A stretch of DNA of 33,270 nucleotides, from the NCBI RefSeq assembly GCF_023716945.1, contig NZ_JAMQQF010000021.1, positions 1 to 33,270 on the forward strand. Direction: 5' to 3'. This DNA comes from Frankia sp. AiPs1 (GTDB taxonomy: Bacteria > Actinomycetota > Actinomycetes > Frankiales > Frankiaceae). The translations under genes and the position numbers were made by a program. Under the pieces are notes generated by a model, which saw only the letters and a program-made list of their open reading frames with translations, was not told the DNA's origin and searched no databases. Shown piece after piece: positions 1,012 through 24,331 of this stretch. The first letter of the stretch is position 1. Every line of letters starts with the position of its first letter.

Positions 1012-2496
1012 TTAGCCGGGCGGGATCCGGTGTCGGAGGAGTGGGAAGCCTGCTCTGCCGTGCATCTGGCGCATGATCCGCTTGGTTTTGGTGTTGACGC
1101 CTTCAGTGCCGCCGTTGTGGTGGGGCAGGGTGAGTGCGGCCGTGACGGCGTCGCGGTCGAGTTCGGGGCCGCGGGTGAAGGCATGTAGGTGAGGCAGGTC
1201 GGCGGCCCGCGCGTTGGTAATCCATGTGGTGAGGCGTTCGTCGTTGCCGTCGGCTGGGTCGAGCAGCGCGGCGAAGTCGCGGACCAGGCTCGCGAGGGTG
1301 GTCATCTCGGGGCAGGCGGCGGTGAGCTCGCCGAGCCGGTTGCGCTGGGCGTCGGTGAGCCTGTCGGGTCTGGTGAGCAGGAGCCGGCTGACGGTGCGCG
1401 GGGAGATCGCGGGCCGGTCGCCTTCGAGGCGTCCCTGGTTGATGTAGCGGACGAGCAGGTTGTGGCTGCCTGTATAGCCCTGCTCGGTGATCTCACGGAA
1501 CAGGCGCAGGACCGGCACGGCGGGCTCTTCGGCGCGGCGGCGTTTGAGGTAGTCCCGGTAGGGATCGACCAGGGTCGGGCGAAACGCTGGTGCGCGGATC
1601 AGCCGGTCCGGTTCGGGGACGCGGGCGTAGCGCTTCACCGTGTTCAAAGCGAGGTTCAGTCGTCGTGCGCAGTCGAGCAGGCCCACCCCGGAGTCGAGCA
1701 GGTCGTGGATCTGCTACCAGCGCTGTCGGGTGGTCTGGACGCGGGGTCCGTCGTTCGGTGGCGGGCCGGCCTTCGCCCAGCAGGCGCTGTGCGCGGCGAC
1801 TTCGCGGCGGACCGCTTCGGCGAGGTTGTGCCACAGATGCCACCGGTCGGCGACCTGCACGGCGTCTGGTAGGGCGCGGCGGACCGCTCGGCATAGGCAG
1901 CCGAGCCGTCCCGGCAGGCGATCTGCACGCCGGGATGGGCGCGTAGCCAGGCTTCCAGCGTGTCCGCGCTGCGGTCGGGCAGGACGTCGACGCGGCGGCG
2001 GGTCTCAGCATCGATCAGGATCGTGGTGTAGCGCTGGCGGCGGCGTAGCGCGAAGTCGTCGCCCCCGAGCAGCCGCGGGACCTTCGGGCGGCGGTAGCGG
2101 CAGGCGCATCAGGGCGCGCAACGCGGTGTGCCGCGACAGCCGCACCGACGCGGCCAACACCCGAGCGCCGGCGCAGCCAGCCAGTTCCCGGACCACCGCA
2201 CCGATCTGGGCCGCAAGCCGCACGGTGCGCTGCTGGTAGCGCTCCAGCACGCCCGGGACCTGCTCCCGAAACGTCCGCAGACAGCCGGCCGTCGGGCACA
2301 CGAGGCGACGCATCCGCACCGCCAGGAGCATGCGGCGCGCATCCAGCGGCACATCCGCCACCGTCCGCACGTGATAGGCGTGCACCCGCGCCGAGAGCGC
2401 ACCACAAGCGGCGCCAACCCGGCAAACACCACCGCCACAAGACCATCCACGCCAGACATGACGCATCGTGACGTACACACTCACATCGGCGACCAC
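1012..2496 (-). pseudogene. ISL3-family transposase, broken by two frameshifts and a stop
   Basis: Minus-strand pieces of one ISL3-family transposase lie in order across three frames. An N-terminal part (about 2005-2440) includes SARVHAYHVRTVADVP and a zinc-finger-like segment. A middle DDE part reads GGDDFALRRRQRYTTILID and CRDGSAAYAE. The C-terminal part (1012-1686) ends with the family-typical MRQMHGRAGFPLLRHR. Frames change near 2075 and near 1890 (apparent loss of one G), and an in-frame TAG lies at 1714-1716 just before the C-terminal piece. No intact transposase can be made. The element abuts the end of the polyketide operon and, with the IS256 remnant, forms a junkyard boundary. Confidence 0.85.
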
Positions 2497-2577
2497 CGGA
2501 TCTGCGGCAGGCCCGGCCCGGAGACACCCCCGGCGGGCCGTCGGCTGCGGTCGGTCGAGGACCTTCTGGCACGCCGG

Positions 2578-3510
2578 TCAGGCAAGGCACTCCGGGAGGT
2601 GCCCACCGTTGAATTCCACCATTTCCGCGAAGAGCAGCTCGACCGGCAGCGGGGCTGCCGGCGGTGCCCCCTGATGCTCGGCGATCGCGCGATGCAGGTT
2701 GGGGACCAGCCGCTCCGGGTCCTTCCAGCCGGCGAATCGGCCTGCCGAGCATTGGCGGGCCGCCTGGATCGGTGTCAGCCCCTTACGCACCGCGTCTCCG
2801 GCGGCGTCCCGCAGCCACAGCAGGTACGCCTCCGTCTCGTCGAAGGCCTCGGGGCCGGCGACCGTTCCGTGCCCGCCGACCACGACTTGGGCACCCGTCT
2901 CGCGCATCCGGCGGACAGCGGTCAGCGACCCCGCGACCGTGCCCATCAACAGGAAGGGCGTACACCCCGGCAGCACCACGTCGCCGGTGAACAGCACCTT
3001 CTCGCCGGGGAGCCACACCACGGTGTCGTGCCCGGTGTGCGCGGGCCCCACGTTGAAAAGCTCGGCCCGGCGGTGGCCCAGGTGCAGCGTCAGCGCGTCG
3101 TGGTAGGTCACCATCGGTAGCACCGGATCGACATCGCCCCAATCCACCTCCGGCCAGAGGCCGGTCAGTGCCAGCCCCGTCTCCGCCATCTCGGCCCGGG
3201 TGCCGTGGTGGGCGATGATCGTCGCCGTGTCGGCGAAAAGGTGATTGCCGAAGGTGTGGTCGCCGTGGAAATGAGTGTTGACCAGGTACTTCACCCCGCC
3301 AAGACTGAGGCCGTCCACTGCGGCGCGCAGCAAGGTCGCGCGCCGCTCGGTGGCCGCGGTGTCGACGAGCAGGATGCCGTCGTCACCCACCACCACGCCA
3401 GCGTTGTTGAGACACCAGCCTCCGTCCGGCTGGACATAGGCGAACACGCCGTCCGCCACCTCCGTCATGCGCGCCGCGACCGCGCTGGCGGCGGCGCGAG
3501 TCGCTGTCAC
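2578..3510 (-). CDS. ActIV-like metallo-beta-lactamase-fold cyclase/thioesterase
   Basis: 310-residue metallo-beta-lactamase-fold protein. The metal-binding motif HFHGDH is at residues 80-85, with further ligands likely in PAHTGHD and FTGDVV. In actinorhodin biosynthesis the MBL-fold protein ActIV acts as second-ring cyclase and thioesterase releasing the bicyclic intermediate. The same position, directly after the ActVII-type aromatase, is kept here, so the same role is inferred. It starts with GTG at 3510, overlapping the TGA of the upstream aromatase gene by 4 bp, which implies translational coupling. It is the last gene of the operon before the insertion-sequence debris. Function is inferred from family and gene order; a generic MBL hydrolase cannot be excluded. 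Confidence 0.85.
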   Translation of the reverse strand: MTATRAAASAVAARMTEVADGVFAYVQPDGGWCLNNAGVVVGDDGILLVDTAATERRATLLRAAVDGLSLGGVKYLVNTHFHGDHTFGNHLFADTATIIAHHGTRAEMAETGLALTGLWPEVDWGDVDPVLPMVTYHDALTLHLGHRRAELFNVGPAHTGHDTVVWLPGEKVLFTGDVVLPGCTPFLLMGTVAGSLTAVRRMRETGAQVVVGGHGTVAGPEAFDETEAYLLWLRDAAGDAVRKGLTPIQAARQCSAGRFAGWKDPERLVPNLHRAIAEHQGAPPAAPLPVELLFAEMVEFNGGHLPECLA

Positions 3511-4484
3511 CGGACTTCTCGCTTCTCGGTGGAGGATACGGGCGCCGCCGCGCCGGCCAGCGTCCGGCGGCTATTGGCCCCCAGCGCGTCCCGGAGGTAG
3601 CGGCGTCCCTCGGCGAGGGAACTGCTCGGCCCGAGCACCGTGCGCAGCGCGTCCGGGTCCAACACGACGGTGTGTCTCGCCGTGACCACGTCGGGCCCGT
3701 CCGGCACCCGATGGAAGATCCACACCCCGCTGTGCCCGAGAAGCGTCGAGGGCGGCCGGGTCTGCTTGTAGGCGATGCTGTCGTTCGCCAGGCACACCCT
3801 CACCGAGCGGGTGGTGTGCGTCGACCCGTCATCGCCGCTGACCGTGTCCATCTCCAACTGTTGGACGCCCGGCGTCTCCTCGGTGAGCACCACACGGCGA
3901 ACGTGCGGGAGCAGATCCGGCCAGCGGTCCGCCCGGTCGATGAAGTCGTACGCCTCCTCGGCCGACCCGGTGAGCTCGACGGTGTCCTCGAAGGTGAAGA
4001 CGACTTCCGCGACCGGATGACCGAGCTCCGCCACCCGGCGCAGCGCCGCCAACTCTTCGACGCTGTTGCGTTCCAGGGCCGCACTGATCCACTGGACGGC
4101 AGCGGCGTCGTCGCCCACCGCGGTGAACTCGTGGTCCAGGATCACCTCGGTGCGGCCGCCGGGCAAGGGCAGGACCTGCCAGCGTCCGCTCATCGCCGCC
4201 ACCGGTGGCTGGCTCCGTTCCTGGCGGAAGCCGATCGTCCGCAGGTGCCGGTCGACCTCACGCCGCGACGTCCACGTCTTGACCTCGCCGCCGACCAGGG
4301 CCCAGAGCTGGAAGCGTTCCTCGCTCTCCGTACGCTCGAGGTAGCGCAAGAAGATGTTCGGACCGAAGATCGCCGGCCACCGGTCAGCCTCGGTGAGCAG
4401 TTCGAAGACCAGGTCCGCCGGGGCCGCCACCACTTCTCGATGCGATGTCCGGTGCTCCGTAGGCACAGTAGGCACACCCTTCAC
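3507..4484 (-). CDS. Bifunctional polyketide aromatase/cyclase (ActVII-like, two START-type domains)
   Basis: 325 residues containing two similar polyketide-cyclase/START-type halves, roughly residues 10-150 (AAPADLVFELLTEADRWPAIF) and 160-300 (SAEEAYDFIDRADRWPDLLP). Didomain enzymes of this size (ActVII, Gra-ORF4 type) dehydrate and aromatise the first ring of C9-reduced octaketides. The internal repeat of the DRWP motif shows the duplication. The start is GTG at 4484, overlapping the ACP stop (GTGA). A downstream GTGA joins it to the ActIV-like gene. The didomain form, rather than a monodomain TcmN type, agrees with a reduced polyketide and with the ActIII-like ketoreductase in the same operon. 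Confidence 0.92.
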   Translation of the reverse strand: MKGVPTVPTEHRTSHREVVAAPADLVFELLTEADRWPAIFGPNIFLRYLERTESEERFQLWALVGGEVKTWTSRREVDRHLRTIGFRQERSQPPVAAMSGRWQVLPLPGGRTEVILDHEFTAVGDDAAAVQWISAALERNSVEELAALRRVAELGHPVAEVVFTFEDTVELTGSAEEAYDFIDRADRWPDLLPHVRRVVLTEETPGVQQLEMDTVSGDDGSTHTTRSVRVCLANDSIAYKQTRPPSTLLGHSGVWIFHRVPDGPDVVTARHTVVLDPDALRTVLGPSSSLAEGRRYLRDALGANSRRTLAGAAAPVSSTEKREVR

Positions 4485-9935: not shown

Positions 9936-9966
9936 TTGACCTCAAGCGCACTTGAGATTGCAGGCT
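9936..9966 (+). promoter_or_regulatory. SoxR box in a 19-bp-spacer promoter (quinone oxidoreductase/frnE)
   Basis: The palindrome CCTCAAGCGCACTTGAGA (9940-9957) differs from the classical soxS box CCTCAAGTTAACTTGAGG only in the central bases and the last base. It sits between a -35 TTGACC (9936-9941) and a weak -10 CAGGCT (9961-9966), with the 19-bp spacer typical of MerR-family activated promoters. The downstream gene begins at 10026. Confidence 0.87.
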
Positions 9967-10025
9967 GGTCCTGACGTCCCCGGCCCTGATGGGCCGGCGT
10001 CGAGATGTCTGGGGAGAGGAGATCC

Positions 10026-10940
10026 ATGCGGGCCGCGGCATTTTACACCTTCGGTGGTCCGGAGGTGCTACAGGTGGTCGAGGTTGCCACACCCGGAGCT
10101 GGGCCGGGAGAGGTTCGGGTCCGAGTCGAGGCGGCGGGCGTGCAAGGGTACGACTCGGCGGTACGGTCCGGCTGGACACCGCCGGGGCAGACCCTGCAGT
10201 TCCCGCAGATAGTCGGCAACGACTTCGCCGGTGTCGTCGACGAGATCGGCACGGGCGTCACAGACTTCCGGATCGGCGACGAGGTGCTCGGCTGGGCCAT
10301 GCTCGCCAGCTGTGCCGAGTACGTCGTCGTCCCTCCAGGGCAAGTCGTCTCCAAGCCGTCTGGGATGACCTGGCCGCAGGCGGGCACCCTGTCGGCGTCG
10401 GCGCAGACCGCACACACCGCGCTGGACGAACTGAAGGTCAGCGCCGGCGACACTCTGCTGATCCACGGCGCCTCCGGCGGCGTCGGAACGGTCGCGGTGC
10501 AGCTGGCCCTGGCCGCCGGCGCGACGGTGATCGGAACGGCCGGCCCGGCGAACCAGGACTACCTGCGCTCGCTGGGGGCCACACCGACCACCTACGGCGA
10601 CGGACTGGCCGACCGCGTGCGAGCCTTGGCACCCGGTGGTGTCGACGTCGCCCTGGACGCCGCGGGCGGCGCGGCCCTGGATGCCTGCCTCGAGGTGGTC
10701 GCCGACCGGAGCCGGATCGGCACCCTGGTGGATTTCGCCCGGGCGGACGAGCTCGGCGTACGATTCCTGCGCAGCCAGCGCTCAGGGCAGCGGCTACGGG
10801 CGATCACAGACCTGTACCGCGCCGGGCGACTGACACTGACCGTGTCGGAGGCCTTCCCGCTGGACCGGATCGCCGACGCGCACCGCCGGATCGACACCGG
10901 CCATGCCCGCGGCAAGACCGCCGTCCTGCTCAGGGGGTGA
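10026..10940 (+). CDS. Zinc-free MDR quinone oxidoreductase, predicted SoxR target
   Basis: 304-residue medium-chain dehydrogenase/reductase of the NADPH:quinone oxidoreductase type. A GroES-like N-terminal domain (AAAFYTFGGPEVLQVVEVATPG) is followed by a Rossmann domain with HGASGGVGTVAVQLA; there are no zinc-binding cysteines. ATG at 10026 is preferred over one 21 bp upstream because GGGGAGAGGAG lies directly before it. It could be an ActVI-ORF2-like pathway enoyl reductase. Its SoxR-box promoter instead suggests reduction of, or protection from, the quinone product, as SoxR targets in Streptomyces coelicolor include a quinone reductase. Its stop overlaps the next gene as GTGA. Confidence 0.88.
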   Translation: MRAAAFYTFGGPEVLQVVEVATPGAGPGEVRVRVEAAGVQGYDSAVRSGWTPPGQTLQFPQIVGNDFAGVVDEIGTGVTDFRIGDEVLGWAMLASCAEYVVVPPGQVVSKPSGMTWPQAGTLSASAQTAHTALDELKVSAGDTLLIHGASGGVGTVAVQLALAAGATVIGTAGPANQDYLRSLGATPTTYGDGLADRVRALAPGGVDVALDAAGGAALDACLEVVADRSRIGTLVDFARADELGVRFLRSQRSGQRLRAITDLYRAGRLTLTVSEAFPLDRIADAHRRIDTGHARGKTAVLLRG

Positions 10941-11584
10941 GCGGCGTGCTGATCGAGGTCTTCTACGACGTGCTGTGCCCCTGGTGCTACATCGGAAAGC
11001 ACCGGCTGCGGCGGGTCCTGACGGATTTTCCCGGCCGCGACGAGGTTCGACTGCGGTGGCGCAGCTATCAGCTGTCACCGGACGAGGGGCGCATCCCTGG
11101 CCCGACCGCCGCCGAGGCGATGGCCACGTGGACCGCACCGGACCAGCTGCCCGGGCGGCTGGCCCTGATCGAGCAGCTCGGCACGGACCTGGGCTTGGCT
11201 ATCGACCTCGACAAAGCGCGTCCCGTCAACACTTTCGACGCGCATCGGCTGACCCATTTCGCGGCCGACCATGAGCGGGCCGACGCGCTCGTCGAGGCGC
11301 TGCTGCGGGCCTACCAGGCGGAGGGGCGGAACGTCGCCGACCACCTCGTCCTGCTGGAGTTGGCGCACGAGGTGGGCCTGCCCGAGGAGGAGACAGGCAC
11401 GGTGCTCGCCGGTGACCGGTACGCCGACGCCGTCATCGCCGATCAGCGCCGCGCCGCCAAGTTGCGGGTGAGCGGCGTGCCGACGCTCGTCGTCGACGGC
11501 GGCCCGCCGTTCTCGGGCATGCGGCCGCCGGAGATGGTCCGCGCCGAGTTGGACCGTGCCGCGGCGGCCTCCGGCGTCCGGTGA
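10937..11584 (+). CDS. FrnE-like DsbA-family oxidoreductase
   Basis: 215-residue thioredoxin-fold protein of the DsbA/FrnE family, named after a frenolicin-cluster protein. The redox motif CPWC is at residues 14-17 in YDVLCPWCYIGKHRL, and a cis-Pro loop is likely in VSGVPTLVVDG. There is no signal peptide, so it works in the cytoplasm. Its exact role in pyranonaphthoquinone pathways is not settled; thiol-disulfide or glutathione/mycothiol-type chemistry is likely. The start is taken as GTG at 10937, overlapping the preceding TGA; the GTG at 10946 is an alternative. It is co-transcribed with the quinone oxidoreductase and therefore probably under SoxR control. A strong hairpin follows. Confidence 0.9.
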   Translation: MSGVLIEVFYDVLCPWCYIGKHRLRRVLTDFPGRDEVRLRWRSYQLSPDEGRIPGPTAAEAMATWTAPDQLPGRLALIEQLGTDLGLAIDLDKARPVNTFDAHRLTHFAADHERADALVEALLRAYQAEGRNVADHLVLLELAHEVGLPEEETGTVLAGDRYADAVIADQRRAAKLRVSGVPTLVVDGGPPFSGMRPPEMVRAELDRAAAASGVR

Positions 11585-11666: not shown

Positions 11667-12932
11667 TCAGAACGTGAGGCCGTGCACGCTCGCCACCTGG
11701 TGGAACGCCTCGATGGTAGCCGGCAACGCCGCCAGGGCACGGCGGTATCCGGCCCGCGCTTCGGCGAGCTCCGTACGAACGGACTCGTCGTACAACACGG
11801 CCTCCAAGGCCGTGCTGACGGACCCCTCGTCGAGGATCTCCGCGTGGGCCATCGTGTCCGCGAACGGGTTGCCGTTCCACGTCGGCCGGACGAGATCGTT
11901 CCACCGCATCGGCCAGGTTTGGTACGACGGCAGGGGCCCGGGATAGGCGTCCAGCCACGAGCGTACGGCGGGGCTGGGCTCCCCGATCGCAGCGTGCAGA
12001 CGTTCGACGCCGTTGTCGTCCGCCAAGTCGAAACCGTTGACGACGGCCACCCCGGACACATCGGCCCACACCGCCCGTTCCAGGGCGAACGACGGCAGCG
12101 AGAGCGCCAGAACGGCGTCCGCGGCGCCGAGCAGGTCGAGGTACTCCCGCGCGCCGTAGCGGGGCCGCCGGTGCAGCCGGCCCTCCGGAAGGCGGCCGAA
12201 GGCTCCGAAATCCGGGCCGGCGACGAGGAACTCGATGGTGGCCGGCAGCCGGGTGAGGTAGTGCAGCACCAGCTCCGGGATACGCGCCGCCAGTTCCCGG
12301 CTGGCCGGCCCGGCGCGGGTGAGCATGGTCTCCTGCCAGGGCAGGGTAGGGATCATCAGGAGCCGGGTGGCGCCGGACACCCCGAGCGCGCGCCGCACCC
12401 GGTCCCGGGCGGCGGCGGACGGCGGTGCGAGCGTCGTCGTGGCGCGGTAGGGCACGGCCGGATCCCCGAGTGCGCCGGTGAGCCGACCTGAGGGCACCGG
12501 CCGCAGCCGAGGCATGGACGCGATCCGGTCGCCGATCGGCGTGAGCCGACCCAGCAGCTCCACCTGCCGTTGGCCGGGACCCATGTCGTAGCAGTCCAGC
12601 GGAACGACCGGCAGATCGAAGGCGTCGATAAACCAGGGGTCCACCCGGTACGCCGTGTGGCAGCTGGTCCAGTAGCCCATGAAGTCGCTGGGCACCAAGA
12701 TGTCCGGACGCCAGTCCCCGATCGCGCCGGCGACGACGGTGACCAAATCCGCCCCGGCTCCGGGATGGACGACCCGGTGCGGATAACCGGCCTCGCGCAG
12801 CTGATCGACGCTGTACGAGTCGATGAGGAAACAACTCTCGACGCCGGCCTCGCGGAGCTGGTCGGCAAGGTCCAGCCCCATGGCGGTCTCGTGCAGCGTC
12901 TTGGCGAGAAAGCTCAGGAACAACAGGCGCAC
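11667..12932 (-). CDS. GT-B-like protein, possibly DUF6365 family (putative glycosyltransferase)
   Basis: 421 residues with a glycosyltransferase B-like outline: N-terminal MRLLFLSFLAKTLHETAMGLD followed by alternating alpha/beta segments (DWRPDILVPSDFMGYW) and a second half with PATIEFLVAGPDFG and EYLDLLGAADAVLALSLPSFALER. It does not carry the classical GT1 donor signature (HGG-type) seen in the neighbouring glycosyltransferase. It resembles proteins annotated DUF6365; that assignment is from memory and not verified. The start is GTG at 12932 after GGAGGAAG. It ends an operon after the aminotransferase (gap 40 bp), so a role in making or transferring the amino sugar, or as an accessory protein to the upstream transferase, is inferred. 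Confidence 0.6.
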   Translation of the reverse strand: MRLLFLSFLAKTLHETAMGLDLADQLREAGVESCFLIDSYSVDQLREAGYPHRVVHPGAGADLVTVVAGAIGDWRPDILVPSDFMGYWTSCHTAYRVDPWFIDAFDLPVVPLDCYDMGPGQRQVELLGRLTPIGDRIASMPRLRPVPSGRLTGALGDPAVPYRATTTLAPPSAAARDRVRRALGVSGATRLLMIPTLPWQETMLTRAGPASRELAARIPELVLHYLTRLPATIEFLVAGPDFGAFGRLPEGRLHRRPRYGAREYLDLLGAADAVLALSLPSFALERAVWADVSGVAVVNGFDLADDNGVERLHAAIGEPSPAVRSWLDAYPGPLPSYQTWPMRWNDLVRPTWNGNPFADTMAHAEILDEGSVSTALEAVLYDESVRTELAEARAGYRRALAALPATIEAFHQVASVHGLTF

Positions 12933-12972: not shown

Positions 12973-14109
12973 TCAGGAACGCGCGGCGACGGCGGTGGTC
13001 AGCCGGTCGACGATGAGGCTGACGTCGCTGTCGTCGAGACCGGGATGCAGCGGCAGGCAGAGCGTCTCGCGACCGGCCCGGTCTGCGCCGGGGAGGGTGA
13101 CGGGTCCGGCGCCGTAGGTCGACACCCGGTGCAGGGGGGCGTACCGGACGGTGGTGTAGATCCCCGCCGCGAGCAGATCCTGGGCGACGGCGTCGCGCAC
13201 CGCCGGATCCAGCCGGACCCAGTAGAAGTAGTACGACGACTCGTGGCCGGGCGGCAGCGCCGGCGGACGCCGTACGCCAGGGACACCGGCCAGTTCGCGG
13301 TCGTACCGCTCTACGATGTCACGGCGCCGCGCCACCATCCGCGGTAGGCGCTCCAACTGGACGGCGCCGATCGCCGCGGTCAGATCGTTGCCGATGAGAC
13401 GGCGGCCGATCTCCGGAACGGCCAGTTCCCACCAGCGCTGCGAGACGCCCGCGTACCGGAATCCGCTCGAGCGTTCGAGCCCGTGGTAGGCCAGGCGCCG
13501 GGCCCGCTTGGCGCGCCCCTCGTCGCGCACGTACAGCATGCCGCCGTCACCGGTCACGATGACCTTCATCGCGTCGAAGCTCCAGATCGCCAGATCACCG
13601 AAGGTACCGACGGCCCGGCCGCCGACCCGCGACGCCGGCGCGCAGGCGGCGTCCTCGAGGAGCGTGAGACCCTCTTCGCGGCAGTACTCCGCGATCTCGG
13701 TGACCCGGCCCGGATAGCCGCCGTAATGCAGCACGACGACCGCCCGGGTGCGGGGTGTGACGACCCGGCGCACGTCCTCGACCCCCGGGTTCTGGGTGCC
13801 GGGGTCGACATCGCAGAACACCGGGCGGGCGCCGGTCACCATGATGGCGTTGGCGGCGGAGACGAAGCTCGTCGACGGCAGCACGACCTCGTCGCCGGGG
13901 CCCAGGTTCAGCGTTTCCAGACCGAGAAACAGCCCCGCGGTACCCGAGTTGAGAAAAATCACCCGGTCGGCGGGTACGCCGAGATGAGCGGCGAAGGCCG
14001 CCTCGAAGGCCTCGGTACGGGGCCCGTGACCGAGCCATCTGCTGGAGAAGACGTCGCTGACCGCTTTCAGTTCGTCGTCGCCCACCTGGGGTTGGAAGAG
14101 GCTGATCAT
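12973..14109 (-). CDS. NDP-hexose aminotransferase (DegT/DnrJ/EryC1 family)
   Basis: 378-residue PLP-dependent sugar aminotransferase. The Schiff-base lysine is Lys182 in IWSFDAMKVIVTGDGG, with LEDAACAP carrying the PLP-contacting Asp and NSGTAGLFLGLETL near the phosphate site. It would transfer an amino group from Glu or Gln to a 3- or 4-keto dTDP-deoxysugar. Combined with the 3-dehydratase and 3-ketoreductase in this window, a 4-amino-2,3,4,6-tetradeoxyhexose (forosamine/tolyposamine type) is one possible product; a 3-amino sugar of angolosamine type is less easily reconciled with 3-deoxygenation. ATG at 14109 overlaps the upstream glycosyltransferase stop (ATGA) and has GGAGGG before it. 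Confidence 0.9.
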   Translation of the reverse strand: MISLFQPQVGDDELKAVSDVFSSRWLGHGPRTEAFEAAFAAHLGVPADRVIFLNSGTAGLFLGLETLNLGPGDEVVLPSTSFVSAANAIMVTGARPVFCDVDPGTQNPGVEDVRRVVTPRTRAVVVLHYGGYPGRVTEIAEYCREEGLTLLEDAACAPASRVGGRAVGTFGDLAIWSFDAMKVIVTGDGGMLYVRDEGRAKRARRLAYHGLERSSGFRYAGVSQRWWELAVPEIGRRLIGNDLTAAIGAVQLERLPRMVARRRDIVERYDRELAGVPGVRRPPALPPGHESSYYFYWVRLDPAVRDAVAQDLLAAGIYTTVRYAPLHRVSTYGAGPVTLPGADRAGRETLCLPLHPGLDDSDVSLIVDRLTTAVAARS

Positions 14110-15299
14110 CGGAGGCCCTCCGTTTCGTCAGACGTCGCGCCGGTCGAGGTCGGCCGCCGAGCACCGCTCCGAGGGCCGTAGCGCTGCTCCAGGACGCCGA
14201 CCACCTCCGCCGGCAGCGGCATGGCCGCCATCTCCACGGCGATCCTTGCGGCCCGGTCCCGGTAGCCGGAGTCGGCCATGATCTCCCGGCAGACGGCGGT
14301 GATGTGTTCGGCGGTGTCGTCGCCCGGCGCGATCATGCGCGCGGCACCGGCCGCGGTGAGTCGTTCGCTGTAATCCACGACATAGGGCAGGTACGGGATC
14401 AGCACCTGCGGCACGCCGTGGGCCAGCGCGCTCAGCACGGTGGTCCCGCCGGCGTGGCTGATGACGACGTCGCAGGTCGGCGCGACCACATCGAGGGGCA
14501 GCCAACCGGCGCGTACGTTGTCCGGCAGCGGGCCGAGGAGCTCGGCCATGTCGTCCGGCGCGGCGACCAGCAGTTCGACGTCCAGGTGCTCCACCTTCTT
14601 GACCAGTCCGGTCAGGACGTCGAGGTAGAAATCCGGGGTGATCCTGCTGCCCGCGGTGAGCAGGACCCGTGGCCGATCGCCCCGGGTGTACATCCACGGC
14701 TGCGTGGCCCGGGGCGTGGCGTAGGGGACGTACCGCATCAGCTGGGCCGGGAGCGCGTCGGCGGGCCGCAGACTCGGCGGGCAGATGTCGATGAACAGGT
14801 CTGGCCGGGGCATGTCGTAGAGGCCGAGCCGCTCCAGCTGCGGGCCGAGCTCCGCGGCCGCGGCGAGATCGATGGTGCGGGGCTCGCCCATGTCGACGGC
14901 GTGCTTCACGTACGGCACCCCGGCGTGGCTGGCCACCAGGGGCGCGGCGAAGGCCAGCACGCCGCCCACCACGAGGTCGGGCTGCCACGCGCGGGCGAAC
15001 TCCAGCAGCGCGTCCAGACACCAGGTGGCGTACCGGCCGAAGCACCGGCCGTTGAAGATGAAACGCTCATGCAGATCGGTGGGGATCGGCAGCCGGTTGC
15101 CGTCCTCGTCCTCAAGGGTCTGCAGCATCGATCGGGAGGTCACCGCCACCCCCGGCAGACCGGCGCCGGTGACCGTCGGCATGACGTCCTTGGGCCCCGC
15201 CATAACGACCTGGTGCCCCGCGTTGCGGGCGGTCTGCGCCAGCGGCACCAGGGAGAAGATGACGCCGGAGGACCCGCCGGCCACGAAGAGAATCTTCAT
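14106..15299 (-). CDS. Family 1 (GT-B) glycosyltransferase
   Basis: 397 residues starting MKILFVAGGSSGVIFSLVPLA, typical of antibiotic GT1 enzymes. The C-terminal donor-binding signature includes GWLPLDVVAPTCDVVISHAGGTTVLSALAHGVPQVLIP. It uses an NDP-deoxysugar and the polyketide aglycone as acceptor. The overall style resembles transferases of granaticin, medermycin and urdamycin pathways (for example GraORF14, Med-ORF8, UrdGT2), several of which form C-glycosides, but O- versus C-linkage cannot be read from sequence by eye. The ATG at 15299 is chosen because similarity begins there; an in-frame extension to 15440 would cover the promoter repeats. First gene of a three-gene minus-strand operon. 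Confidence 0.9.
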   Translation of the reverse strand: MKILFVAGGSSGVIFSLVPLAQTARNAGHQVVMAGPKDVMPTVTGAGLPGVAVTSRSMLQTLEDEDGNRLPIPTDLHERFIFNGRCFGRYATWCLDALLEFARAWQPDLVVGGVLAFAAPLVASHAGVPYVKHAVDMGEPRTIDLAAAAELGPQLERLGLYDMPRPDLFIDICPPSLRPADALPAQLMRYVPYATPRATQPWMYTRGDRPRVLLTAGSRITPDFYLDVLTGLVKKVEHLDVELLVAAPDDMAELLGPLPDNVRAGWLPLDVVAPTCDVVISHAGGTTVLSALAHGVPQVLIPYLPYVVDYSERLTAAGAARMIAPGDDTAEHITAVCREIMADSGYRDRAARIAVEMAAMPLPAEVVGVLEQRYGPRSGARRPTSTGATSDETEGLR

Positions 15300-15330
15300 C
15301 GCCCGACCGTAGCGGCGGCGGATAGAACAC

Positions 15331-15416
15331 CGCTCGACACCGGCTGGAACGCGCCGGTCGCTGGCCGGTCCGCTCGACCGCAATTCGAGCTGCCGTCGAC
15401 GCCGGGTTGCGACCAT
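15331..15416. promoter_or_regulatory. Bidirectional SARP-type operator between glycosyltransferase and methyltransferase
   Basis: Because TCGA is palindromic the block reads both ways. Plus strand: TCGACCG (15374), TCGAGCT (15385) and TCGACGC (15396), period 11 bp, with -10 GACCAT (15411-15416) exactly 8 bp after the last, facing the methyltransferase. Minus strand: TCGACGG (15393-15399), TCGAATT (15382-15388) and TCGAGCG (15371-15377), plus a second pair TCCAGCC (15342-15348) and TCGAGCG (15331-15337) nearer the glycosyltransferase. The minus-strand -10 is less clear. Confidence 0.75.
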
Positions 15417-15454
15417 CGCCCGACGAGGTACCGAGACCACGAAGGAGCGGGCAC

Positions 15455-20991: not shown

Positions 20992-21022
20992 TTGACCTCA
21001 GGTTCACTTGAGGTTCGATAAT
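20992..21022 (+). promoter_or_regulatory. SoxR box in a 19-bp-spacer promoter (LLM oxidoreductase)
   Basis: CCTCAGGTTCACTTGAGG (20996-21013) matches the classical SoxR box with both outer arms kept. It lies between -35 TTGACC (20992-20997) and an excellent -10 GATAAT (21017-21022), spacer exactly 19 bp. Transcription would start near 21030, about 35 nt before the ATG at 21064. No equivalent -35 exists on the minus strand. Confidence 0.9.
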
Positions 21023-21063: not shown

Positions 21064-21957
21064 ATGGACATCGGCGTAGGACTTCCCGGCCATGTACGAG
21101 ACCTCGACGGACGCACGTTGATCGAGTGGGCGACGCGAACGGAGGCCGCGGGGTTCTCCGCTCTGAGCGTCAGCGATCGGTTGAACTGGTCCTCCCCCGA
21201 ACCGCTGGTGACACTGGCCGCCGCGGCCGGTGCCACCCAGCGGATCAAGCTGATCAGCACCATTCTGGTGGCGCCGCTACGCGCCAACCACGCACTGCTC
21301 GCCAAGTCCGCGGCCACCGTGGACCGGCTGGCCGGGCCGCGGCGGCTCCATCTCGGCCTGGCACCCGGCGGCCGCGAAGAGGACTTCACACTGAGCAAGC
21401 TGGACTTCCGGCAGCGCGGGCGGCAACTGGATGAGCTGCTGGCCGACCTGCATACCTTCTGGCAGCCGGACAGCGAGGTCGGTCCATCCCCGGCCACCCC
21501 TGGCGGTCCGGCTCTGCTCTTCGGCGGTATGTCGGAAGCGACCCTGCGCCGCATCACCACCTACGGAGGCGGCTGGGTCATCGGCGACTGCACCGTGGAG
21601 GAGTTCCAGGGCTTCGTCCCCAAGGTCCAACAGGCGTGGGCTGCCGGAGGACACACCGGGTCGCCGAAACTGGTCGCGTCACTGATGTTCGCACTCGGCC
21701 CCGACGCGAGGCAGGCCGCCGCGGACGCCATCGGGCCGTACTACGCCTTCATCGGCGACGAATGGGCGCAGTACTCCATCGACGCCGCGCTCACCACCCG
21801 CGACGACATCGTCACCGCGGTCGAGCAGTTCGAGAAGGCGGGCTGCGACCAGCTTCTGTTCATGGGCAACAGCGCTGATCCCGATCAGGTGGACCTCCTC
21901 GCCGAGGCTGTCCGCGGCGCAGCGGGCGCACGTCGTGAGGCCACGGCGACCATTTGA
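21064..21957 (+). CDS. LLM-class (luciferase-like) flavin/F420-dependent oxidoreductase
   Basis: 297-residue TIM-barrel protein of the bacterial luciferase-like family (MDIGVGLPGHVRDLDGRTLIEWATRTEAAGFSALSVSDRL; RIKLISTILVAPLRANHALLAKSAATVDRL; HLGLAPGGREEDF). Such enzymes use FMNH2 or F420 for monooxygenation or hydride transfer. Two roles are possible: a tailoring redox step on the naphthoquinone, or product protection. The SoxR-box promoter directly upstream favours a step induced by the quinone itself. ATG at 21064 with GAGGAAAGG about 10 bp before it. It is followed 82 bp later by a glycosyltransferase stump. Confidence 0.88.
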   Translation: MDIGVGLPGHVRDLDGRTLIEWATRTEAAGFSALSVSDRLNWSSPEPLVTLAAAAGATQRIKLISTILVAPLRANHALLAKSAATVDRLAGPRRLHLGLAPGGREEDFTLSKLDFRQRGRQLDELLADLHTFWQPDSEVGPSPATPGGPALLFGGMSEATLRRITTYGGGWVIGDCTVEEFQGFVPKVQQAWAAGGHTGSPKLVASLMFALGPDARQAAADAIGPYYAFIGDEWAQYSIDAALTTRDDIVTAVEQFEKAGCDQLLFMGNSADPDQVDLLAEAVRGAAGARREATATI

Positions 21958-22039: not shown

Positions 22040-22105
22040 ATGCGCATACTCTTCACCGTCTCGTCGTGGGCGACGCATTACGCCGCGATGGTCCCCGTCG
22101 GCTAG
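22040..22105 (+). pseudogene. Glycosyltransferase stump (first 21 codons only)
   Basis: ATG at 22040, preceded by GGGAGGG, opens a frame beginning MRILFTVSSWATHYAAM, the conserved N-terminus of EryCIII/DesVII-type GT1 glycosyltransferases (usually followed by VPLGWAL). It ends at TAG 22103-22105 exactly where insertion-sequence debris starts. The remainder of the gene is not found on the other side of the debris. It was probably a second aglycone glycosyltransferase co-transcribed with the LLM gene, destroyed by insertion and deletion. Confidence 0.75.
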
Positions 22106-22316
22106 TACGGCAGCCGTAGTTTTGTGATCACTTGATCTGGATGAGCTGGTGGTGGGTGGCCGGGTGGGCCTGGCCGCGCGTCGGTGTCGGGGCGTGGAAC
22201 GGCCACCACCCTGCTGATCTCGACTGACTTTCGAGGCACAGTCGCTACGATGGGGCCACCTCGCCGGCGTCACCGCGACGCGGTGGACCACAAAGACATC
22301 CCAGGAGCGCTAAATG
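22106..22316. other. Gene-free stretch, probable insertion-sequence debris
   Basis: No convincing gene on either strand. It joins the glycosyltransferase stump to the IS110 remnant and is likely a mobile-element end or scar; no inverted-repeat pair could be matched with confidence. Confidence 0.4.
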
Positions 22317-22826
22317 TCAAGCAGCGCATTGTTGGCGATGGGTCCAGGCGGTGTCCTCGTTGTAGGGGGTGCCGGTTTTGAGGCATCCGTGGAGGATGCC
22401 GACCAGACGGTTGGCCAGCTGCCTGAGAGCGGCGTTGTGGGTGGCGCCGCGGGCGCGTTGCCGGTTTTCGCCGGGGTTGGCGCCTTGGCCAGCAACTCCA
22501 GGGCGTCGGTCGCGTCCAGGTCTTCGAACGCGGCCAGCGCGGCGGGGAAGTAGTCGCGCAGCGCGTGCCGCAGCCGCTGGACGTGGCGGGTGCGATCCCA
22601 GCTCAGCGACTTGTGCGCCCGCGGCGTCGCTCTTGGCGCCGGAGACTCCCAGCCGGTCCCGGAACCGGGCGGCCTGCAGGGGATTGACCGCCAGCACCGT
22701 GTATCCGGCCGCGACCAGTGCCGTGACCCCCCCGCCGTCGTCCATCACCTCCACGTCGTGGTGGTCCTGAGCCCAGTCGTCGCCGACGAACAGTCGCAAC
22801 GTTCCTCCGTCCACACGCTCGAACAC
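22317..22826 (-). pseudogene. IS110-family transposase remnant, internally deleted
   Basis: Minus strand. The N-terminus reads LRLFVGDDWAQDHHDVEVMDD, the DEDD-transposase start of IS110/IS116/IS902. It then jumps to LVAAGYTVLAVNPLQAARFRDRLGVSGAKSDAAGAQ, missing the segment between. A frameshifted part around 22500-22600 reads as a DYFPAALAAFEDLDATDALELLAKAPTP-like segment in another frame. The C-terminus (ARGATHNAALRQLANRLVGILHGCLKTG) follows with most of the second domain deleted. About 169 codons remain of about 400, so it is inactive. It disrupted the neighbouring glycosyltransferase gene. Confidence 0.85.
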
Positions 22827-23052
22827 CGGGTGCAGCCAACCGGAGAACCATCAGCGACCTAATCACGCAGTGCTCACACCAGCACAAAGCCGGTGGGCAC
22901 GACATCCCAGCAGCGATCAATCCTCCGGGCCAACCGACTAGGGCACGGTCTTTCTTCAGGACTCCACGTCCAGGAACACAGAGTGCTCACCCGCCAGCGG
23001 CTACCACCAGGAGTCTGCCGGACGGCAACTCCCCGAACTGATTGGGAGCAAC
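22827..23052. other. Intergenic region before the secreted protein
   Basis: No gene seen. It holds the end of the IS110 debris and the upstream region of the secreted protein, with GGGAG at 23044-23048 as its ribosome binding site. No SoxR or SARP site was found. Confidence 0.4.
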
Positions 23053-23724
23053 GTGATCAGAACCCGTAAGTGGGTCCGCGCACTGGCCGCACTGGCCGCA
23101 CTGGCCGCGCTGGCCGCCGGTGCCGCCATCACCGGCGCCGCTACCCCTGCCACCGCCGCGGACACGCCGGCCCAGGCGGCGGTTACCACCGCCAGCACCG
23201 TCCCGTACGTCTGCCAGACCAGGATTACGGGCACGTGGACACCGGTGCTCGACTACAGCCGAGGGTTCAGCGTCACCGCGCCCAACCAGGCCGCGCCGGG
23301 GTCGAAGGTGCGGATCTCGTTCAACCCGGATCCGATCGTGGCCGACGCACGGTTCAACAAGGAGATCCGCCTAGTGCCGGTGACCTACCGGCTGCCAGCC
23401 GGCGCGCAGTTGCTCGACTACAGCCTCTCCGAGGGAAGCGGCCTCGGTTCCTCTCGTCAGGTGGTGTCGCCGTTGGGTGACGAGATCCAGGTGCTCGCAA
23501 GCGGCCCGTTCCACGGGGGGACCGCGTTCGACCTGCCGACGCTGACGGTGACCCTCAAGGCGCCACAGTCGGGCGTGCTGACGACCGGCCCGGGTGGTGA
23601 CAGTTTCCTCGACCCGGGCTTCGGCTGGTGGCGCGAGCAGACCACCTCGCTGCAGTGGGATCCCTTCCAGTGCTATCCCGACCCGGCCCAGCCGACGGTG
23701 TTCTCCACGACCACGATCAGCTGA
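23053..23724 (+). CDS. Secreted protein of unknown function
   Basis: 223 residues starting with GTG at 23053. A basic start (MIRTRKWVRALAAL) and a run of Ala-Leu-Ala repeats form the hydrophobic core of a Sec signal peptide, with likely cleavage around ATAADTPA near residue 38. The mature part is beta-rich, with one Cys near its start (VPYVCQT) and one near its end (FQCYPDP) that could form a disulfide, and no recognised enzyme motif. The family is not recognised. The signal core is encoded by a 9-bp tandem repeat (GCACTGGCC-like, about four copies). It lies between IS110 debris and soxR, and may be cargo of a past insertion rather than part of the pathway. Confidence 0.75.
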   Translation: MIRTRKWVRALAALAALAALAAGAAITGAATPATAADTPAQAAVTTASTVPYVCQTRITGTWTPVLDYSRGFSVTAPNQAAPGSKVRISFNPDPIVADARFNKEIRLVPVTYRLPAGAQLLDYSLSEGSGLGSSRQVVSPLGDEIQVLASGPFHGGTAFDLPTLTVTLKAPQSGVLTTGPGGDSFLDPGFGWWREQTTSLQWDPFQCYPDPAQPTVFSTTTIS

Positions 23725-23845: not shown

Positions 23846-24331
23846 ATGACCCGCGACGAGGACGTCTCCATTCCCATTGGTCGTAAGGAGCTGTCGATCG
23901 GCGAAATGGCGCAACGCATCGGCGTCTCGGTGTCCACACTGCACTTCTACGAGTCCAAGGGCCTGATCAGCGCGCGGCGGACCGCCGGCAACCAGCGCCG
24001 GTACGACCGGGAGATACTGCGTCGTATCGCCTTCGTACGCGCCGCGCAACGGTTCGGTATCCCGCTCAACGAGATCGTCGAGGTGCTGCGGCAACTGCCC
24101 GAAGGGCGCACCCCGACACGGCAGGACTGGGCGGTGCTGTCCGAGAACTGGCGGTCCGAGATTGATCGCCGGATGGAGGACCTCCGGCGGCTACGCGAGA
24201 ACATCACCGACTGCATCGGGTGCGGCTGCCTGTCCATCGCCCGGTGCGCTCTGGTCAATCCCGAGGATGAGTACGGCCGGCGGGGTCCCGGAGCGCACCG
24301 GCTGCTGCGCGGAGACACGGATCCGTCCTGA
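23846..24331 (+). CDS. soxR: Redox-sensing MerR-family activator SoxR
   Basis: 161-residue MerR-family regulator. The N-terminal winged helix is LSIGEMAQRIGVSVSTLHFYESKGLI and GNQRRYDREILRRIAFVR, with a dimerisation helix and the [2Fe-2S] motif C-X2-C-X-C-X5-C at Cys123, 126, 128 and 134 (CIGCGCLSIARC), nearly identical to Escherichia coli SoxR. In actinomycetes SoxR senses redox-active natural products directly rather than superoxide. Three matching SoxR boxes lie in this window (9940, 20996, 26440), so a local regulon is inferred. No box was found before soxR itself. ATG at 23846 has a weak upstream GAGG. It is convergent with the exporter gene, separated by a hairpin. Confidence 0.97.
   Translation: MTRDEDVSIPIGRKELSIGEMAQRIGVSVSTLHFYESKGLISARRTAGNQRRYDREILRRIAFVRAAQRFGIPLNEIVEVLRQLPEGRTPTRQDWAVLSENWRSEIDRRMEDLRRLRENITDCIGCGCLSIARCALVNPEDEYGRRGPGAHRLLRGDTDPS

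Follow-up and report, generated by a model that had tools for sequence, protein, structure and literature searches.

A glycosyltransferase pseudogene bordered by an IS701-family end in a type II polyketide cluster of Frankia sp. AiPs1

Nearly all IS701 elements are described as having a strongly conserved target duplication that is exactly 4 bp long (PMC2266710). A literature search on IS701 and the tetranucleotide CTAG found no paper, and searches at title and abstract level brought up nothing that looked directly relevant either to a relation of SoxR to polyketide clusters or to an equivalent of the case described here, in which the 21-codon beginning of an EryCIII-like glycosyltransferase (GT) gene, hereafter the stump, stands in front of insertion-sequence debris. 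No PDB relatives of the 21-residue stump were found, and those of its full-length relative in genome G256 are antibiotic glycosyltransferases with names such as SnogD, SsfS6 and CalG1.

The window, i.e. the whole stretch of 33,270 bp that was analysed, is all of contig C337 of a draft assembly (7.35 Mb, 1203 contigs, 92% complete). By family matches, the contig carries a type II polyketide cluster with two ketosynthases, a protein with two polyketide-cyclase matches (aromatase), a metallo-beta-lactamase-fold (MBL-fold) protein and a short-chain dehydrogenase/reductase (SDR). Also present are an acyl-CoA dehydrogenase-like protein, two DegT-family proteins, a Gfo/Idh/MocA oxidoreductase, a methyltransferase, a luciferase-like monooxygenase (LLM) and SoxR; the pathway roles of all these genes are putative ones, read from sequence. 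One complete GT gene was recognised in the cluster, with its likely start, MKILFVAGG, inside the open reading frame:

14106..15440, minus strand: intact EryCIII-like glycosyltransferase (PF06722, PF21036; orthologues of 57–67% identity in sister clusters)

Another observation concerns positions 11667-12932, which encode a DUF6365 protein (PF19892, E 7.3e-116) whose N-terminus resembles, by eye, a GT-B fold. This protein could be an additional, unrecognised sugar enzyme.

The glycosyltransferase stump and its relatives

22040..22102, plus strand: GT stump, 21 surviving codons of an EryCIII-like glycosyltransferase gene (protein matches, aligned GT N-termini)

The stump opens with an ATG at 22040, preceded by the RBS-like stretch GGGAGG, and runs for 21 codons to 22102, where the sequence reads a TAG stop (22103-22105). 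With the 21-residue protein as the query, 42 of 393 genomes of the same class, its own included, gave a match at E <= 10. The best three besides its own were G256, G193 and G257, with identities of 81%, 71% and 76% and per-genome E values of 2.1e-7, 7.6e-7 and 2.1e-6, respectively. A match at E <= 0.01 was obtained in 11 of the 394 genomes of the family of G257, and 18 of the 341 genomes of the family of G256 also matched the stump. The identity to G256 extends over the 21 residues at the exact N-terminus of the protein, and the EryCIII-like GT N-termini as a group were 55–81% identical to the stump peptide. Among the full-length relatives, the closest three have lengths of 406, 406 and 407 residues, and the one that was scanned for domains displays EryCIII-like N and C domains. 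A motif read off these relatives for the N-terminus of the acceptor domain, MRxLFTVSxWxTHYxxMVPxGW, is followed by the stump through residue 21, after which a stop replaces Trp22. Residue 20 of the stump is V, while L is found in most aligned GT N-termini, a hint of drift or divergence. The first-pass annotation had described the start codon, ribosome binding site and 21 codons of a GT1 gene, and this description is upheld by the matches just given.

Stump-type GT genes were collected from 25 loci (23 genomic and two plasmid, 9.8–40 kb each). In 12 of them the fetched flanks contain at least one type II polyketide synthase (PKS) marker: a ketosynthase (KS) of at least 45% identity in four, an aromatase relative in ten and a ketoreductase with 60–64% identity to the SDR of the window in eight. 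The flanks of the other 13 have no such marker, and one of these loci adjoins a type I PKS. A Gfo/Idh/MocA gene was seen in nine of the 25. The protein matches, together with the type II PKS markers in 12 of the 25 loci, indicate that the stump once formed the N-terminal end of an enzyme that glycosylates in natural-product clusters. As such, it is a glycosyltransferase pseudogene, in itself an ordinary finding.

The C-terminal sugar-nucleotide binding domain (PF06722) expected for this GT is absent downstream of the stump, and the assembly has no orphan copy of it. Using three full-length relatives in tblastn, no remainder of the gene was detected below E 0.3 in positions 22103-23100. A full-length relative compared with the own genome gave nine matches, namely the stump, the intact GT and other GT pieces at 28 to 39% identity, none of them an orphan GT C-terminus. 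The best candidate, a match in contig C503 (37% over residues 111-404), was rejected because it has an N-terminal match of its own and is thus a different GT. So, the genome search that the first-pass annotation had proposed for the missing part did not find it in this draft, which is 92% complete, although with 1203 contigs the part could lie in unassembled sequence. Since the C-terminal part of this GT is gone from both the window and the draft assembly, the stump is to be taken as a relic and not as a functional member of the GT family.

As a separate observation on the same genome, contig C503 contains, at about 3001-4122, another EryCIII-like GT that is broken by a TAA codon (locus L099), and an open reading frame resembling, by eye, a transposase lies on the opposite strand at 2322-3035.

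Insertion-sequence relics beyond the stump

22106..22207, plus strand: 102 bp from the left end of an IS701-family element, with its inverted-repeat end and leader and without transposase (match to element ends elsewhere)
22208..22291, no strand: spacer of 84 bp between the IS701 and IS110 relics (best match 32 bp, 91%, E 1.8e-5, in locus L069)
22292..23041, ends approximate, minus strand: IS110-family relic, about 750 bp of an element of about 1490 bp, with internal deletions and frameshifts (PF01548, element alignment)
23053..23724, plus strand: gene whose product has a signal-peptide-like start (sister-cluster homologues)

Alignment to 97 related genomes resolved the debris into blocks that are independent of each other. 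The block nearest the stump, a 105-bp stretch (22103-22207), was 83.8–89.5% identical to loci L071, L074 and L075 and 73.6% identical to L072. The transposases of the L072 and L071 copies belong to NF033540 (transpos_IS701), over its cut-off, with E values of 7.2e-123 and 2.5e-107, and in two-ended copies elsewhere the start of the block is the terminal inverted repeat. On this basis, the element touching the stump is of the IS701 family and not of the IS110 family, and its end starts directly after the CTAG formed by the last base of the stump and its stop codon. The match ends at 22207, short of the transposase gene that full copies have, and the relic has no DDE transposase gene. A right IS701 end was not found in the window, the best reverse-strand match to the 25-base end having ten mismatches. 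So, the left junction with its CTAG alone survives, and there is no right-side tetranucleotide for comparison.

Outside the window, 21 IS701 ends were obtained from 18 of the 21 loci examined, the other three having no recognisable end. The terminal core of 23 specified bases was found without mismatch in ten of these ends and with 1 to 5 mismatches in eleven. In the own draft assembly, a pattern search with the 17-base start of the IS701 end gave one exact match, the next best having two mismatches, so that no second copy was seen; the reversed control pattern matched more often than the pattern itself (39 and 37 versus 8 and 7). Ten plasmid records yielded short matches only to the debris. 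In locus L071 (G033:C22) the two IS701 ends lie 3.9 kb apart, and the 731-codon frame between them (1510-3702) resembles, by eye, a large serine recombinase.

Concerning the IS110 relic, it begins at about 22292, 186 bp past the stop codon of the stump and 84 bp past the IS701 end, and it makes no contact with the stump. Within 22317-22826, matches were obtained to PF01548 (E 1.5e-7, profile positions 63-101 of 155) and, below its cut-off, to NF033542 (E 1.8e-7, positions 310-343 of 343). A full-length DEDD transposase of the IS110 type is absent, with fragments of the profiles only, while alignment to L087, L088, L044 and L049 located both ends of the element in the relic. The two relics are thus separate. 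Except for the match listed above, comparison of the spacer with the fetched loci gave E values of 0.03 or worse, and no clear source of it was found among them. No known RNA was detected in the window at the gathering threshold. The gene at 23053-23724 has an RBS-like GGGAG at the outer end of the IS110 relic, and neither Pfam nor NCBIfam gave a match to its protein at E <= 0.001. As homologues of 40–43% identity occur in sister clusters (one in G834 and two in G1022), it is probably a cluster gene.

The first-pass annotation had the stump end at insertion-sequence debris and ascribed the cut to IS110. Insertion-sequence debris does lie at the end of the stump, with an IS110 relic nearby; the second part of the claim is not supported, since the IS701 end occupies the junction and the IS110 relic lies beyond it. 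Such a misattribution is easily made where relics lie side by side, and it is corrected here.

Codon 22 and the order of events

22102..22105, plus strand: CTAG, made up of the last base of codon 21 and the amber codon at the Trp22 position; commonest IS701-type target tetranucleotide (aligned GT N-termini, IS701 ends)

Codon 22 was compared in 37 rows from the 25 GT loci, each with an identity of 50% or more and an alignment reaching residue 20 or 21. Two rows, one off-frame and one not a GT, were set aside as chance, and in the remaining 35 residue 22 was Trp (TGG) in 34 and Arg in one. With the base that precedes it, the codon reads CTGG in 23 of the 35, which is the commonest context, and CTAG in the window. 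The outer four bases at the 21 IS701 ends were CTAG in 12, CTAA/TTAG in three and other words in six, with CTGG in none; the IS701 copies of L072 and L071 have CTAG at both ends, and in the two-ended copy of L216 one flank is CCGG and the other CTAG. Because these tetranucleotides vary among ends, they look derived from the target, and probably are target rather than element.

The history that we consider probable is as follows. A GT such as occurs in type II polyketide clusters and other glycosylated ones would have sat 82 bp downstream of an LLM gene bearing a SoxR box. Most likely, its Trp22 codon changed from TGG to TAG, which would have killed the gene. Because the base before codon 22 is C, the new TAG would have created CTAG, a preferred IS701 target, and an IS701-family element would then have inserted there. 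A later deletion would have taken the other ~385 GT codons and all but the terminal 102 bp of the element. Separately, an IS110 element would have landed nearby and then decayed. We infer this order of events, the deletion and a lineage-private origin of the GT; nonsense first, followed by insertion into the new CTAG, is the likeliest order.

The same pseudogene and the same IS701 element are compatible with another order, in which the element entered a GT gene that still worked, at a non-canonical CTGG, and the target copy later acquired A as its third base. In favour of it, CTGG is the prevalent word at this place in the relatives, and six of the 21 IS701 ends have words other than CTAG and CTAA/TTAG, with a CCGG/CTAG pair in L216. 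Against it, CTGG occurs at none of the 21 ends, and the later change would have to strike precisely the base whose replacement gives the commonest target word. Insertion before mutation appears unlikely, even if, as it shares the pseudogene and IS701 core and differs in order only, the confidence given to it overlaps with that of nonsense before insertion.

Somewhat less likely again is an illegitimate join, in which a deletion brought an IS701 end, together with the CTAG that already flanked it, up against the GT, so that the TAG was never a GT codon. In favour of it, the region is heavily rearranged, with a truncated IS701, a half-deleted IS110 and an 84-bp spacer. Against it, the GT match extends exactly to the first base of CTAG, a word that shares three of its four bases with the CTGG of the relatives; a random join would give this by coincidence only.

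Returning to a nonsense mutation that precedes the insertion, it is evenly balanced, in our estimation, whether the mutation itself made the IS701 landing site, in which case IS701 ends may flag genes that had died beforehand, and pyrimidine-TA-purine targets (a pyrimidine followed by TAA or TAG) could couple gene death to IS701 capture. The stump site illustrates clearly how one set of bases can be both stop codon and insertion-sequence target. This coincidence of amber codon and IS701 target is a detail worth keeping. A general preference of IS701 for existing stop codons was also considered, and rejected: judged by eye, the 22 ends, that of the window included, show no bias towards the in-frame ends of long upstream open frames.

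The LLM gene, SoxR and the sister clusters

20996..21013, plus strand: SoxR box CCTCAGGTTCACTTGAGG before the LLM gene (consensus match)
21064..21957, plus strand: luciferase-like monooxygenase (LLM) gene (PF00296, E 1.4e-31; orthologues about 60% identical)
23846..24331, plus strand: SoxR gene (TIGR01950, E 1.1e-62, over cut-off)

The predicted SoxR box lies 50 bp upstream of the LLM gene and has two mismatches to the SoxR-box consensus. It was the only match in the window at up to three mismatches, and none was found in 100 shuffles. By eye, it is located within a promoter-like pair, TTGACC-(N19)-GATAAT; a promoter scan with spacers of 16–18 nt gave no hit, a 19-nt spacer being outside its range. 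Judged from its sequence, the box is real. The gap between the LLM gene and the stump is 82 bp, with no terminator-like site in between, so co-transcription of LLM and GT would have been possible.

A second SoxR-like box, with four mismatches, is found at 9940-9957 of the window, before a quinone-oxidoreductase-like gene (10005-10940) that is followed by a DsbA-like domain (region 10005-11584). A similar but weak palindrome, with five mismatches, precedes the quinone-oxidoreductase-like gene in G834 and G839.

LLM orthologues were searched for in 337 and 325 genomes, of which 43 and 6 (own included) matched at E <= 1e-60, and 21 loci were examined: the best 18 of 47 matches from the first search, two from the second, and G035. 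A SoxR box (up to four mismatches) just upstream of the orthologue was present in two of them (G1007, G130) and in none of the other 19. In 11 of the 21, a DsbA-like gene lies directly upstream of the LLM gene, while in the window the DsbA relative ends 9.5 kb from it. These two observations make the LLM gene look relocated in the window. In the 12 other genomes of the same genus no LLM of the grade of the sister clusters was found, the best full-length match being 45%, and an LLM scan of the genome contigs gave 12 distant relatives.

In three of the 21 loci (G834, G839 and G1022), the LLM gene belongs to a sister cluster of the type II PKS kind. These clusters are only about 60% identical to the window in LLM and are hence not from near-identical strains. 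With the GT of the window and three stump-type GTs as queries, no stump-type GT was found in any of the three, with the regions extended to 43.5, 60 and 60 kb. The next recognised gene after the LLM gene is KSalpha in G834, a KSalpha fragment in G839 and an MFS-like gene (29% identity) starting within 375 bp in G1022, leaving no room for a GT in between. One GT each is present in G834 and G839, orthologous to the intact GT of the window and, in G839, divided between two frames. The two GTs of G1022 are 44% and 67% identical to the intact GT, and neither is of stump type. As the sister clusters are without it, the lost GT seems to have been a private gain in the lineage of the window rather than a conserved step. 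The sister cluster of G839 (L259-L261, about 5.832-5.842 Mb) itself looks decayed, with a KSalpha of 72 residues, no full KSbeta, a DUF6365 of 60 residues, a DegT1 of about 106 residues, and GT and methyltransferase split over frames.

Seen from the side of the GT, no LLM or SoxR relative was detected at E <= 1e-3 within the fetched flanks of the 25 stump-type loci, nor a SoxR box at up to four mismatches, of which about 1.3 would be expected by chance in their 798 kb. Among the loci compared, the LLM-GT adjacency is thus particular to the window.

These results bear on an explanation in which the GT belonged to a second glycosylation step, once general and under SoxR control, and was cut by an IS110 insertion. 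The nearby IS110 relic, the SoxR box before the LLM gene and the short, terminator-free LLM-GT gap all speak for it, but the junction element is an IS701, a stump-type GT is missing from all three sister clusters and the GT loci lack LLM and SoxR relatives in their fetched flanks, so that we consider it improbable. The first-pass annotation had placed the stump after a SoxR-driven LLM gene, where box and gap are as described but the adjacency is seen in the window only; its SoxR-linked glycosylation is left unsupported, and the comparison it called for, with related clusters that might keep an uninterrupted GT after the LLM gene, gave no such gene in three of three, the outcome that it had itself named as refuting. 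It is possible that the cluster once attached a second sugar. Predictions of its product should reckon with a single GT1 enzyme and include no SoxR-controlled sugar. Finally, that the 21 codons are a chance frame or a leader peptide, as their small number could suggest, can be dismissed in view of identities up to 81% at the exact GT N-terminus, the same start position and the RBS-like stretch.

Compared with known systems, the stump has its 21 N-terminal residues and its start position in common with EryCIII-like GT1 enzymes of polyketide clusters (G256, G193, G257 and a plasmid of Kitasatospora sp. NBC_01302), whereas these have about 406 residues, of which just 21 are kept here, and their 25 loci, unlike the window, have no LLM or SoxR relative. 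With the IS110 family, the more distal relic shares both ends and parts of the transposase, but it is half deleted and frameshifted relative to an intact element and sits away from the GT junction. The element at the junction shares with the IS701 family its terminal inverted-repeat sequence and the CTAG flank, while from a length of about 1.46 kb, as in the L072 copy, the window keeps 102 bp, without transposase and without right end. The sister clusters (G834:C162; G839:C1, 5.84 Mb; G1022:C1, 1.376 Mb) resemble the window in LLM (59–61%), KSalpha (72% and 74%, and 82% over the 72-residue fragment of G839) and the orthologous GT (57–67%), and have MBL-fold, DsbA-like and quinone-oxidoreductase-like genes in common with it. 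They differ in the placing of the LLM gene, with DsbA ahead of it and KSalpha, a KSalpha fragment or an MFS-like gene following, and in having no stump-type GT.
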